Shown here: positions 12,616-54,144 of the stretch, piece after piece
Numbering within the stretch: the stretch's first letter is position 1
Layout: every line of letters begins with the position of its first letter
Origin: Pedobacter sp. Bi126
Lineage (GTDB): Bacteria; Bacteroidota; Bacteroidia; Sphingobacteriales; Sphingobacteriaceae
NCBI RefSeq assembly: GCF_918698245.1
Contig: NZ_CAKKMS010000002.1
Span: 372,001 to 436,000 of the forward strand
Length of the DNA: 64,000 bases
Direction of reading: 5' to 3'
Made by a program: the position numbers and the translations under genes
Notes under the pieces: generated by a model
What the model saw: only the letters and a program-made list of their open reading frames with translations
The model's database searches: none
Told to the model about the DNA's origin: nothing

Positions 12616-13164
12616 ATGAAAATCTACACTAAAACTGGCGATAAGGGCCAAACATCACTTATTGGTGGTACCCGAGTACCTAAATATCATTTACGTATCG
12701 AAACCTATGGAACTGTTGACGAGTTAAATTCGTACATAGGTTTAATTATGTGCCAGGATATTGAGGCGCACGAACAGAAACTATTAAAAGAAATTCAGGA
12801 TAGGTTATTTACTGTTGGTTCATCGCTCGCGGCAGACCCAGAAGCATCTAAGATGAAGATCCCCGATCTGCACGATACTGATATTACCTTGTTGGAAAAT
12901 GAGATGGATCTGATGAACGAAAAACTGCCTGCTTTAAAACATTTTGTTTTACCTGGCGGAAATACTGTCGTTTCTTACTGCCATATTGCTAGATGTGTTT
13001 GTAGAAGGGCAGAACGACTCACAGTTGAACTTGCAGAAAATAGCTTTGTAGATGAGCGTGTAACAGTTTATTTGAATCGTTTAAGCGATTATTTATTCGT
13101 TTTGGCACGAAAACTGACCGTGTATTTTAAGACGGAAGAAAACATTTGGATTCCGCGGGTTTAA
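12616..13164 (+). CDS. Cob(I)alamin adenosyltransferase, PduO type
   Basis: 182 residues. Transfers the adenosyl group of ATP to cob(I)alamin, making adenosylcobalamin. The N-terminal ATP-binding motif is TKTGDKGQTSLIGG, followed by RIETYGTVDELNSYIG; the C-terminal RCVCRRAERL and YLNRLSDYLFVLAR complete the PduO signature. The five-helix bundle length is right. Its product is the chromophore of CarH-type photoreceptors such as the one at 30070, and the cofactor of mutases elsewhere in the genome; this link is an inference. It stands alone between spacers. Confidence 0.94.
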   Translation: MKIYTKTGDKGQTSLIGGTRVPKYHLRIETYGTVDELNSYIGLIMCQDIEAHEQKLLKEIQDRLFTVGSSLAADPEASKMKIPDLHDTDITLLENEMDLMNEKLPALKHFVLPGGNTVVSYCHIARCVCRRAERLTVELAENSFVDERVTVYLNRLSDYLFVLARKLTVYFKTEENIWIPRV

Positions 13165-13795: not shown

Positions 13796-13860
13796 AAAAA
13801 TATATCGCACCGATATCCATTGGTTTAGAAGTAGGGAACACTTTGAAATGGATGGATTAA

Positions 13861-13890
13861 AAAAGGAGTTTCAAAAATGAAACTCCTTTT
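13861..13890. terminator. Bidirectional terminator between the small membrane protein gene and ispD
   Basis: AAAAGGAGTTTCA (13861-13873) pairs perfectly with TGAAACTCCTTTT (13878-13890) around a four-base loop. A-rich and T-rich flanks on both sides allow termination in both directions; on the minus strand it follows the ispD stop by 7 bases. Confidence 0.88.
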
Positions 13891-13896
13891 TATGTT

Positions 13897-29894: not shown

Positions 29895-30031
29895 CCGGTT
29901 ACTTTATGCCTTTAATCAGTAGTTAAAATTTACTGCGTTTAGCAGGTATTTCATGCGAACTTAATGATTACGATGCATACAATATCAGACGATATATTTA
30001 GGGCATTTTAGTAAAAACTTTTTTTTCTTCT

Positions 30032-30067
30032 TTTTGTTTAAATTTTATTGAATATATTTAAACAAAA
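30032..30067. promoter_or_regulatory. Perfect 12-bp-arm palindrome, likely operator of the CarH-like gene
   Basis: TTTTGTTTAAAT (30032-30043) and ATTTAAACAAAA (30056-30067) are exact inverted copies with a 12-base spacer, ending two bases before the ATG at 30070. TTTG at 30033-30036 and TATATTTA at 30053-30060 could be a -33/-7 promoter embedded in it, with 16 bases between. This is the best single candidate for a binding site of the encoded MerR-type regulator. Confidence 0.75.
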
Positions 30068-30069
30068 TA

Positions 30070-30972
30070 ATGACTTATTCTATTTCAGATCTTGAACAGC
30101 TTTCGGGCATCCATTCTCATACCATCAGGATCTGGGAGCAGCGGTACAATGCACTGAGTCCGATGCGATCTCAAGGGAATACGCGTTTATATGATGATAA
30201 GCAGCTCCGAAGACTATTAAACATCGTAAGCTTAAATAAAAGCGGTTTAAAAATTTCTAAAATCTGCAGCCTTTCTGATGAAGCGATTGATAAATTGCTC
30301 GACCAACAGTTCTCATATCCTACTGATGATGAGCAGGCAGATTATGTTTCGCAACTTATTAGGCATGGTTTGGCTTTTGATGAGCACTCATTTAATCATT
30401 TAATTGATCAAAGCATTGATCAGTTGGGACTTTCAGATTGCTACCGGAAAATAATGTATCCATTGTTGGTCCGTTTGGGCTTAATGTGGCGAAAAGACGA
30501 TATTTGCCCTGCACACGAGCATTTTTTATCAAACATTATCCGTCAAAAAATATTTACTCATATCAATAATCTTCCTTTAACAAGGCATGCTGGCGAAAGC
30601 TGGCTTCTTTTTTTACCGGAAGACGAGGATCATGATATTGGGCTGCTTTTTGCCAGTTATATGCTGAGGATGCACCATCATCAAGTTATTTTCTTAGGAA
30701 GCAAAGTTCCGTTGGATTCAATTAAGCGGATATTTTCCACATTAAATGTAGGCCATGTTTTGCTTTTTATGATAAAGTCAAGATCAGAACCTAGCGCGCA
30801 AAAATACGTAGATGAATTGTCTGAAATATGCTCATCCGCTAAGATCCATCTTGCCGGAAATAGTGAGGTAATCAGTAAACTAAACAATATCGAGCACATC
30901 AACTGGTTTAAAACGCTCGATGAATTTGAAAAAACAATACAATACCCTGTTTTACATGAAAGAAATTTTTGA
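30070..30972 (+). CDS. CarH/LitR-like MerR regulator with B12-binding light-sensing domain
   Basis: 300 residues. MerR winged helix at 1-70 (YSISDLEQLSGIHSHTIRIW), a four-helix cap with W140-x9-E150-H151 (the CarH W-x9-EH signature), then a cobalamin-binding Rossmann domain with E186-x-H188-xx-G191, the ExHxxG motif whose His ligates cobalt. In CarH, adenosylcobalamin-bound tetramers repress carotenoid genes in the dark and fall apart in light. crtB and idi follow at once, fitting that role. The C-terminal part overlaps the crtB start by 17 bases. Light response is an inference from motifs and context. Confidence 0.88.
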   Translation: MTYSISDLEQLSGIHSHTIRIWEQRYNALSPMRSQGNTRLYDDKQLRRLLNIVSLNKSGLKISKICSLSDEAIDKLLDQQFSYPTDDEQADYVSQLIRHGLAFDEHSFNHLIDQSIDQLGLSDCYRKIMYPLLVRLGLMWRKDDICPAHEHFLSNIIRQKIFTHINNLPLTRHAGESWLLFLPEDEDHDIGLLFASYMLRMHHHQVIFLGSKVPLDSIKRIFSTLNVGHVLLFMIKSRSEPSAQKYVDELSEICSSAKIHLAGNSEVISKLNNIEHINWFKTLDEFEKTIQYPVLHERNF

Positions 30973-31792
30973 TCAACTATCTGCCAATTGTAGCCGGCTT
31001 ACCACTAAGTTGTATAGTACCAGCTTTTCTTATGGTATTTATTTTCTTGGTAAAGAACTGCGTCAACCCATACACTCCATTTATGGCTTTGTACGTTTAG
31101 CAGATGAAATTGTAGATAGTTTCCATCAGTATGACAAGAATTTTTTATTAGAAAAATTTAAGAACGATACTTTCGAAGCCATTAGCCTGGGTATTAGTTT
31201 AAACCCCATTTTAAATTCATTCCAAAGGGTTGTAAATCAATATCAGATAGATCAGGAGCTGATTGTTCTTTTTCTGAGGAGTATGGAGATGGATCTTTCT
31301 ACGCAAGAATATACACCAGAACTTTACAACGAATATATTTTAGGCTCCGCAGAAGTGGTGGGTTTGATGTGTTTAAAGGTTTTTACCAATGGCAATATTG
31401 CAGATTACGAACAATTGAAACCTTACGCCATGAAATTGGGCTCTGCATTTCAGAAGGTTAATTTTTTGAGGGATGTGAAAGCTGATCATCAAACACTTAG
31501 TCGAAATTATTTTCCCAATGTTAATTTAGCCCTATTCTGCGATCGTCAAAAAAAAGAAATCGAAGAAGAAATTGAAGCCGAATTTGCAATGGCCTTAACT
31601 GGTATTAAGCAGTTGCCTACAGCATCCAGAAATGGCGTATATTTGTCCTATATCTATTACAAAAAGTTATTTGCTAAGATAAAGCGCTTAAGTGCTGAAA
31701 AAGTCATGACTGAAAGGATAAGAATTTCGAACACGCGTAAAGTTGGTTTGATGTTTGGTTCTATTATCCGTAATAAGTTAAATGTAATTTAA
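30956..31792 (+). CDS. crtB: Phytoene/squalene synthase family protein (phytoene synthase)
   Basis: Condenses two GGPP (or FPP) head to head; with this neighbourhood phytoene is likely. 278 residues from the ATG at 30956; longer frame from 30920 is not needed. Two aspartate-rich Mg-diphosphate motifs are intact: D50EIVD54 in RLADEIVDSF and D173VKAD177 in NFLRDVKADHQ. It overlaps the regulator gene by 17 bases and abuts idi with no gap, so the three are one operon. No crtI desaturase or later carotenoid gene is in the window; it must be elsewhere. Confidence 0.9.
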   Translation: MKEIFDQLSANCSRLTTKLYSTSFSYGIYFLGKELRQPIHSIYGFVRLADEIVDSFHQYDKNFLLEKFKNDTFEAISLGISLNPILNSFQRVVNQYQIDQELIVLFLRSMEMDLSTQEYTPELYNEYILGSAEVVGLMCLKVFTNGNIADYEQLKPYAMKLGSAFQKVNFLRDVKADHQTLSRNYFPNVNLALFCDRQKKEIEEEIEAEFAMALTGIKQLPTASRNGVYLSYIYYKKLFAKIKRLSAEKVMTERIRISNTRKVGLMFGSIIRNKLNVI

Positions 31793-32335
31793 ATGGAAGA
31801 ACAAGTTATTCTGGTTGATGAGGAGGATGTGCCAAAAGGACAGATGGATAAAATGGAAGCGCACGAGAAAGGTGTATTGCACCGTGCCTTTTCTGTTTTT
31901 ATTTTTAATTCTAAACGCGAATTATTACTGCAGCAGAGAGCAATAAGCAAATATCATTCTGCAGGTTTATGGACAAATACCTGTTGCAGTCATCCTCGGA
32001 TTGGAGAAAGTAATATCCATGCTGCAAAAAGGAGATTGATGGAAGAAATGGGGATGGACTGTGAATTGAACTATCTATTTAAATTTACCTACAAGGCAAT
32101 ATTTGAAGATGGATTAACGGAACACGAGGTTGATCATGTTTTTTTTGGCATGAGTGATGAACTACCGGTTATAAATCCCGATGAAGTAGAAGCCTTTAAG
32201 TATATGGATTTGCATACGCTAACACAGGATATTGTGGTTAATCCGAGTGCCTATACGCCGTGGTTAAGAATCTGCTTGGATAAAGTTGTAGCGCACGTAT
32301 CAACGGCTAAAACAAAAAACGGGCATACAGCCTAA
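31793..32335 (+). CDS. idi: Isopentenyl-diphosphate delta-isomerase, type I
   Basis: Interconverts IPP and DMAPP. 180 residues. A Nudix-fold enzyme: active-site Cys in TNTCCSHPRIGE (C64/C65, H67), the Glu region LTEHEVDHVF with E110, H111 and E112, and the metal-binding RLMEEMGMDC. Starts on the base after the crtB stop. The presence of idi with crtB under a light regulator suggests that IPP/DMAPP balance is adjusted together with carotenoid output, drawing on the MEP pathway to which IspD at 13897 belongs. Confidence 0.94.
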   Translation: MEEQVILVDEEDVPKGQMDKMEAHEKGVLHRAFSVFIFNSKRELLLQQRAISKYHSAGLWTNTCCSHPRIGESNIHAAKRRLMEEMGMDCELNYLFKFTYKAIFEDGLTEHEVDHVFFGMSDELPVINPDEVEAFKYMDLHTLTQDIVVNPSAYTPWLRICLDKVVAHVSTAKTKNGHTA

Positions 32336-34197: not shown

Positions 34198-34712
34198 TTG
34201 GGTTAGCGTTGATACAGGAAATGGCTAACTTCTCATGATTTGGAAAGCAGTTGGAGTGGTTCTTCGCTTAAAGTAGTCCCGCCCCCGTTTCTGCCCCGAT
34301 GAAGAATCGTGGCATTTCACTATGGTCGGGTTTAGGTTGATTGTTCCCTGCTCATAGCTTCCTTTTCCTTGCGCTAGCCAAATTACTTAACACTCCTGAC
34401 TTTAAAATAAATTACTGTTTAAGCCATGTAGCCCTGATGGAAATGGAAATCCCTTTTGGGCCTCGTTGAATTGTTTATATCGGGTTTTAACCAAAAGGAT
34501 TGGAATGGACAGCAGGACTGAACCCTACCTAATGGCTACTGGCCTTGCGCTTCAAAAAAAATAACTGTTTATTTTTAACGATTGATCAGCAGACTTCCCA
34601 TCAGGATCTTTACGACTAAACTTTGACCAATTTATTGTTGGAATTCTGCTAAATTTGCAGCAAGTTTAGAATTGTGCCCTAAATAAAATAAAAGGCCATT
34701 CTATCTGCAGAT
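34198..34712. other. 515-base gap with hairpin repeats, no gene
   Basis: Upstream half (34198-34380) has short GC-rich words such as CCCGCCCCCGTTTCTGCCCCG and ATCGTGGCATTTC but no frame longer than a few dozen codons. The later half carries a repeat element (34429-34525) and then the promoter region of the HipA-like gene. TAAATTTG at 34650-34657 is an exact -7 box, with TTTG at 34622-34625, 24 bases before. Confidence 0.45.
34429..34525. repeat. Palindromic GATGGAAATGGAAATCC...GGATTGGAATGGACAGCAGG element
   Basis: ATCCCTTTTGG (34450-34460) pairs with CCAAAAGGAT (34491-34500) with one bulge; outer CCTG and CAGG also pair. The left part GTGGAAATCCC and right part GGATTGGAATGGACAGCAGGACTG match the halves of the repeat at 17165-17250, where the words are GTGGAAAACCC and GGATTTGTAACGGAAAGAAGGACTGG. 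I recall similar elements in many Bacteroidota genomes. Confidence 0.6.
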
Positions 34713-54052: not shown

Positions 54053-54144
54053 CTTTAAGAGATTAAAAAAAGAGAATTTAATAGTAAACGATTAGTTAAA
54101 TAGAGATCTTGCCGGATAGCCCGATCTCTATTTATTATATTAGG

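Follow-up and report, generated by a model that had tools for sequence, protein, structure and literature searches.

A conserved palindrome as candidate operator of a CarH/LitR-type regulator ahead of carotenoid genes in Pedobacter

In a stretch of 64,000 nucleotides from Pedobacter sp. Bi126 (contig NZ_CAKKMS010000002.1, positions 372,001 to 436,000; the whole stretch is called the window below), a perfect palindrome with 12-bp arms lies immediately before the gene for a MerR-type regulator resembling CarH and LitR, which is followed by a crtB-like phytoene synthase gene and idi. CarH, a MerR-type protein, together with adenosylcobalamin (AdoCbl) represses its target promoters in the dark. 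The conservation of the palindrome, its co-occurrence with the MerR regulator, the genes targeted by its sites, and the photosensor residues retained in the regulator make it very likely that the palindrome is the operator of a CarH/LitR-type repressor. Judging from the sequence, it is probably bound in the dark by the regulator encoded right behind it, which would repress its own gene along with crtB and idi.

The palindrome and its conservation

The palindrome consists of the arms TTTTGTTTAAAT (30032–30043) and ATTTAAACAAAA (30056–30067), neither assigned to a strand, with a 12-base spacer. The bases TA are all that separates its end at 30067 from the regulator ATG at 30070; the preliminary description had read arms, spacer, and start codon in the same way. 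CarH operators, known in Thermus and Bacillus, are built from the 11-bp unit nnnnTnnACAn according to the available part of the source (PMC9304148). Each arm corresponds to one TnnACA unit of this kind, the first on the reverse strand (30034–30044; core TGTTTA, 30035–30040) and the second on the forward strand (30055–30065; core TAAACA, 30059–30064), so that the pair is inverted; the units are 10 bp apart and their cores 18 bp. A weaker conserved AAAACTTTT-like stretch lies upstream of the palindrome on the forward strand (30014–30023), with columns of up to 75% A in 75 related sites.

When the 175-bp intergenic stretch was simulated 5000 times under a first-order Markov model, 0.26% of the simulations contained perfect 12-bp arms separated by a loop of 3–30. 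For the whole window, the same model gave a mean of 0.4 matches (maximum 3 in 60 simulations), and the actual window held five overlapping perfect-arm matches at three places (13860, 30032, and 54097), which makes the palindrome alone modest evidence. The weight of the evidence is in the conservation of the palindrome rather than in the palindrome per se, and this conservation ruled out a chance palindrome, despite two other perfect 12-bp palindromes in the window. These two have arms of 12 bp or longer and occupy 13860–13891 and 54097–54134. No second site was found in the 6.3-Mb genome when up to three mismatches were allowed; with this one site, the switch would here be local to the regulator, the phytoene synthase, and the isomerase.

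A homologue of the regulator was found in 87 of 99 genomes of the genus. We fetched 90 genus loci, comprising all 53 with at least 41% identity and 37 of the 46 with lower identity. At 53/53 loci of the former group and 0/37 of the latter, two units separated by a core gap of 18 or 19 were present, with the end of the pair between −3 and +12 bp relative to the ATG; five crtI-linked loci of the latter group carried a pair approximately 27 bp upstream and another one before crtI. The regulator gene was followed by crtB-idi at 36 of the 53 loci and by crtI-crtB-idi at 17. A set of named species and family members, including Mucilaginibacter, showed the pair at 75 of 77 loci with at least 41% identity, and the two misses (L225 and L227) fell outside the protein group defined on the phylogenetic tree. 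The pair thus heads the carotenoid cluster in Pedobacter, Mucilaginibacter, and further genera of the family. That group (support of 99 by the Shimodaira–Hasegawa-like approximate likelihood ratio test, midpoint root) contained the pair in 76 of 77 rows, the window counted, with L258 as the sole miss; the named row nearest to the window was P. borealis. The genus, named/family, and tree sets overlap in species. The preliminary description had named conservation of the arms upstream of orthologous genes as one of the points on which its proposal would stand or fall, and the arms recurred in the 53 genus loci and the 76 tree rows.

A null test on 650 open reading frame starts returned the pair at 65, namely 58 regulator starts and seven other genes, each of which lay directly behind a distant merR homologue. 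When gaps of 6–30 were tested, 65 of the 70 matches had a gap of 18 or 19. The pattern TTTGTTTA-N16..20-TAAACAAA occurred at 65 places in the genus, 38 at car genes and 27 elsewhere; because a control gave 20 matches, the latter look like background. Many merR genes of a second type in the genus (L061–L091) carried upstream clusters of TnnACA/TGTnnA in another arrangement.

An alignment of 75 related sites, limited to core-bearing loci (leaving out L225, L227, and L258), showed a core gap of 18 in 52 sites and 19 in 23, and a pair with one of these gaps stood beside the ATG at every one of the 75 loci when gaps of 8–30 were permitted. The columns with 100% identity (T and ACA) arise by selection, since the set required the core. 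One locus (L216) with weak outer arms (6 of 12) was scored as pair-positive all the same. The first n position was T-A in 50 sites, C-G in 20, and A-T in one, with four unpaired, so that most changes at this position are two-sided; few of these are independent on the tree, and a test for independent two-sided changes, with three to five pairs too small a sample, was not significant, a point on the negative side for the operator. A sequence resembling a promoter, TAnnTTT, was found in the left arm of 54 and in the right arm of 47 of the 75 sites. A promoter embedded in the palindrome, as proposed in the preliminary description, may therefore be considered a possibility; a scan for sigma-70-type promoters gave no match at the palindrome.

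These alignments also bear on whether the site might, like that of Thermus CarH, be made of tandem direct repeats, with the palindrome a by-product. The CarA operator sets a precedent, its inverted repeats having later been read as direct repeats (PMC9304148, in the part available), and partial TnnACA matches at −22 of each unit exceeded background (2.4 of 4 vs 1.3); both weigh against an inverted operator. However, none of the partial matches was full, no full TnnACA occurred at −33, −22, −11, +11, or +22 of either unit in any of the 75 sites, and in distant sites the spacer letters differed whereas both arms and the gap were kept. We consider direct repeats the least probable of the explanations weighed here.

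The regulator protein

The regulator gene (30070–30972, forward strand) encodes 300 amino acids with a helix-turn-helix domain, a B12-binding_2 four-helix cap, and, in the structural model, a Rossmann domain. Its best PDB matches were Thermus LitR/CarH entries (E 6e-16 and 7e-16; Foldseek E 2e-16), and residues 86–297 of the model aligned with complete CarH B12 domains. The RxWExRY recognition helix of CarH (R20, W22, E23, R25, and Y26) was present in 90/90 homologues. The Wx9EH motif contacting the adenosyl group (W140, E150, and H151) was conserved in 53/53 close homologues, as were E186 and H188 of the D/ExHx2G/P motif containing the lower axial His, in which G191 was found in 48 and Pro in five. 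W140 and R141 (codons 30487–30492, forward strand) correspond to the adenosyl-stacking Trp131 and to the light-state ligand His132 of T. thermophilus CarH (TtCarH), and H188 (codon 30631–30633, forward strand) corresponds to its lower axial cobalt ligand His177. By its sequence, the regulator is a CarH-type MerR protein that keeps the CarH residues contacting AdoCbl.

Several properties of the protein speak against an AdoCbl-dependent switch of the known type. The B12 tail motif SxT/V...GG is replaced by F233...A262-G263, with Phe in 53/53 close homologues, GG in 0/53, and A/S-G in place of G-G in all 53; consequently, binding of the cobalamin tail may be altered or lost. The position of TtCarH His132 is occupied by Arg in 45, Gln in four, Leu in three, and Ser in one of the 53, and never by His. 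The CarH equivalog model of NCBIfam (NF052513) scored 87.7 bits against a cut-off of 400, and the Pfam B12-binding model (PF02310) gave no match in the regulator. The preliminary description of the protein as CarH-like was upheld for the AdoCbl-contact residues; His132 and part of the tail motif are absent.

Published data on His132 point in both directions. The H132A mutant of TtCarH stays mostly tetrameric in light, which again disfavors our reading, and an earlier report cited in the same article contradicts this result (PMC10442372, in the part available). According to the accessible text of another study, CtMerR of Chloracidobacterium (PDB ID: 8JBS/8JBT) carries Arg in place of His132 and nevertheless loses the adenosyl group upon illumination, and the His after the Trp varies among photoreceptors (PMC11796333).

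These considerations leave a tentative place for the explanation that the operator is correctly assigned and the regulator is no AdoCbl sensor, being either B12-independent like CarA or, as in the case of class II LitR and its LOV protein, released by a partner. The substitutions of the tail Ser and first Gly in all close homologues and the missing PF02310 match support this explanation, and the available portion of a study on class II LitR describes similar TGTACA units used with a LOV partner (PMC9758184). The regulator has the Rossmann B12 fold that is lacking in class II LitR, which contains the four-helix domain alone, and it retains in 53/53 close homologues the Trp (W140) of Wx9EH that is absent in CarA. 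We regard this explanation as possible and less probable than AdoCbl sensing by the regulator.

Sites across the phylum and their genes

We searched a draw of 395 genomes of the phylum for the exact site with nine spacings permitted. The 47 sites obtained were located in 30 genomes, every one of them in the class of the window (98 genomes), with no site in the other classes of the draw. The spacing was that of the window in 43 sites, one longer in three, and three shorter in one, and a reversed-pattern control gave five matches. The probability of such crowding on one of nine spacings was 1e-36, a significance inflated by relatedness.

A MerR protein of the regulator type (E 1e-30 or better) was present in 30/30 genomes with a site, and none of the 311 genomes without this protein had one. 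Inside the class of the window, the site was found in 30/70 genomes with the MerR vs 0/28 without. In these counts the genomes are not independent, up to six candidates per genome were scored, and the two 395-genome draws were taken as identical. Together with the match between the palindrome and the DNA unit of the MerR family, this co-occurrence argues against binding of the palindrome by a regulator other than the MerR, which we consider unlikely. The exact site was absent from 54 of the 84 genomes with the MerR, including all 14 that lie outside the class of the window, and this absence detracts from the assignment to the MerR.

Next to the 47 sites we found merR, sigma factor, or crtI genes heading 11, photolyase or flavin-reductase/DUF2452 operons at 13, fasciclin genes at 11, folE/pterin genes at three, SDR-type genes at three, a rhodopsin/blh pair at one, and other or no genes at five. 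In the first class, the site lay 101–230 bp upstream in L272, L297, and L310, and the sigma factor genes of L269 and L270 had no crt gene in view. Of the 13 photolyase-class operons, seven had a photolyase-type gene in view (in L303 and L309 by weak blastp matches), and six were assigned by a flavin-reductase or DUF2452 gene alone, one of them with the site 308 bp away. One of the three sites in the folE/pterin class was not directly in front. In L290, the palindrome (1501–1536) was flanked by two divergent genes, one at 13 bp that encodes a bacteriorhodopsin-like protein and one at 44 bp that encodes a member of the beta-carotene 15,15'-dioxygenase family. The fasciclin class (L273, L283, L284, L288, L291, L293, L298, L300, L306, L308, and L311) was called by Pfam for L283 and L288 and by blastp for the remaining nine, and we know of no light role of fasciclin proteins. 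The first gene in L280 and L287 presumably encodes an SRPBCC protein, judging by its first residues, and Pfam gave no name for that of L280; on the same ground, we take genes in L268 and L296 to encode PTPS.

Pfam detected sigma-70 regions 2 and 4 in 6/6 scanned sigma factor genes, three of which (L221, L224, and L234) belong to the seven other genes of the null test and three of which (L219, L220, and L230) do not. In Spirosoma and Adhaeribacter, merR was followed in order by the sigma factor gene, crtI, and crtB, and the palindrome preceded the sigma factor gene. Paired palindromes 53–54 bp apart preceded the sigma factor gene in L224, L228, L234, and L235.

The location of these sites helps to assess an alternative in which the palindrome would form a hairpin in the RNA of the start region and control translation instead of being a DNA operator. 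The RNA of 30032–30072 folds with −7.3 kcal/mol (z −2.8), the palindrome ends at the start codon, and G-U-compatible arm mismatches outnumbered C-A mismatches in the 75 sites (47 vs 12). However, these counts are not independent, a single left-arm G being present in 29/75 rows. Moreover, many other sites lie 27–230 bp from an ATG or between divergent genes, the palindromes are doubled in the four loci mentioned above, the letters that are conserved match the DNA motif of CarH, and no Rfam family reached its gathering score at the palindrome. A hairpin is therefore improbable, though not quite as improbable as direct repeats. A sub-threshold Rfam match to CRISPR-DR40 at the palindrome (23.5 of 42 bits) was set aside as chance. 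Elsewhere in the window, a Flavo-1 sRNA (RF01705) was detected at 34426–34523 on the forward strand (59.2 bits vs a gathering score of 42).

In the window, the regulator gene is followed by the crtB-like gene (30956–31792, forward strand) of the SQS_PSY family, the sole gene of this family found in the genome. We set its start at an ATG that gives a 17-bp overlap with the regulator gene; the open reading frame as listed starts at 30920. On this gene, every CrtB and HpnD model of NCBIfam scored below its cut-off, and the name crtB thus rests on family and context. The following gene (31793–32335, forward strand) matched isopentenyl-diphosphate isomerase models over the cut-off, so that idi stands as given in the preliminary description and crtB stands on the weaker basis just stated. 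The best crtI match of this genome lies on another contig, with no palindrome found upstream (L117). Among 30 crtI loci checked, clear palindromes (0 or 1 mismatch) were found only in L095, L096, L103, L105, and L112, which are the loci where crtI adjoins a second-type merR. Upstream of crtI in L117 and its relatives, a conserved TTTATTTACACC-ATG was found in the clade of the window in place of the palindrome. The window further contains a match to the ATP:cob(I)alamin adenosyltransferase family (PF01923) at 12622–13113 (contig 384622–385113, forward strand), and the organism is therefore likely able to make AdoCbl from cobalamin.

Proposed switch and comparison with known systems

We infer dark repression with AdoCbl and release by light. 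The AdoCbl-bound regulator would hold both inverted units as a two-fold dimer or tetramer, and its site would cover the promoter or start region. Light would break the Co–C bond, the regulator would leave the DNA, and the supply of carotenoid precursors would then rise, given that crtB is the sole phytoene synthase family gene found. Elsewhere in the phylum Bacteroidota, such a switch may act on genes for an extracytoplasmic function (ECF)-type sigma factor, photolyase operons, folE, or rhodopsin. Taking both together, we lean moderately towards a light regulon of the CarH/LitR branch shared by much of Bacteroidota, in which the operator would be TTTTGTTTAR-N16-YTAAACAAAA and AdoCbl would be sensed without bis-His ligation. 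In the same joint reading, carotenoid genes would be switched directly in Sphingobacteriaceae or via an ECF-type sigma relay, along with photolyases, pterin synthesis, genes for rhodopsin/retinal, and fasciclin proteins.

In a literature search conducted mostly at title level and covering few subscription journals, we found no description of a CarH/LitR operator in Bacteroidota. Carotenoids are reported to be induced by light in a strain of Chryseobacterium lacus (Bacteroidota), and the authors, in the part of the article available, concluded that a new regulator may be involved (PMC7064467). The present analysis would provide a concrete operator, regulator, and target list for light-responsive members of the phylum. 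CarH-type proteins in which Arg naturally takes the place of His132, along with a two-fold operator, would bear on how DNA is released without bis-His ligation, and the 36-bp palindrome could serve as a compact element for controlling Bacteroidota genes by light.

The regulator resembles CarH of Thermus thermophilus and Bacillus megaterium (class I LitR) in the RxWExRY helix, the Wx9EH four-helix cap, and the ExHxxG Rossmann domain. It differs in having Arg, Gln, Leu, or Ser for His132 and in the replacement of the B12-tail Ser and first Gly. The palindrome shares with the CarH operator the TnnACA unit, and the known role of CarH is the control of carotenoid genes. However, known CarH operators are tandem 11-bp direct repeats, whereas the palindrome presents its units in inverted order across a core gap of 18–19 bp, a difference that weighs on the negative side, and the site of the window abuts the start codon. 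The preliminary identification of the palindrome as a CarH operator is thus favored by its recurrence before light-related genes in the class and qualified by this inversion. Class II LitR of Pseudomonas (PplR/PmlR), as described in the available part of PMC9758184, likewise has sites of two TGTACA-type units and a light regulon including phrB, folE, and cryB, but it differs in a gap of 12 bp vs 18, the lack of a Rossmann B12 domain, and its LOV partner. CarA of Myxococcus is similar as a repressor of crt genes with MerR and B12-type domains and an operator for which inverted repeats were once proposed, but it lacks the Trp of Wx9EH, which the Pedobacter regulator retains.
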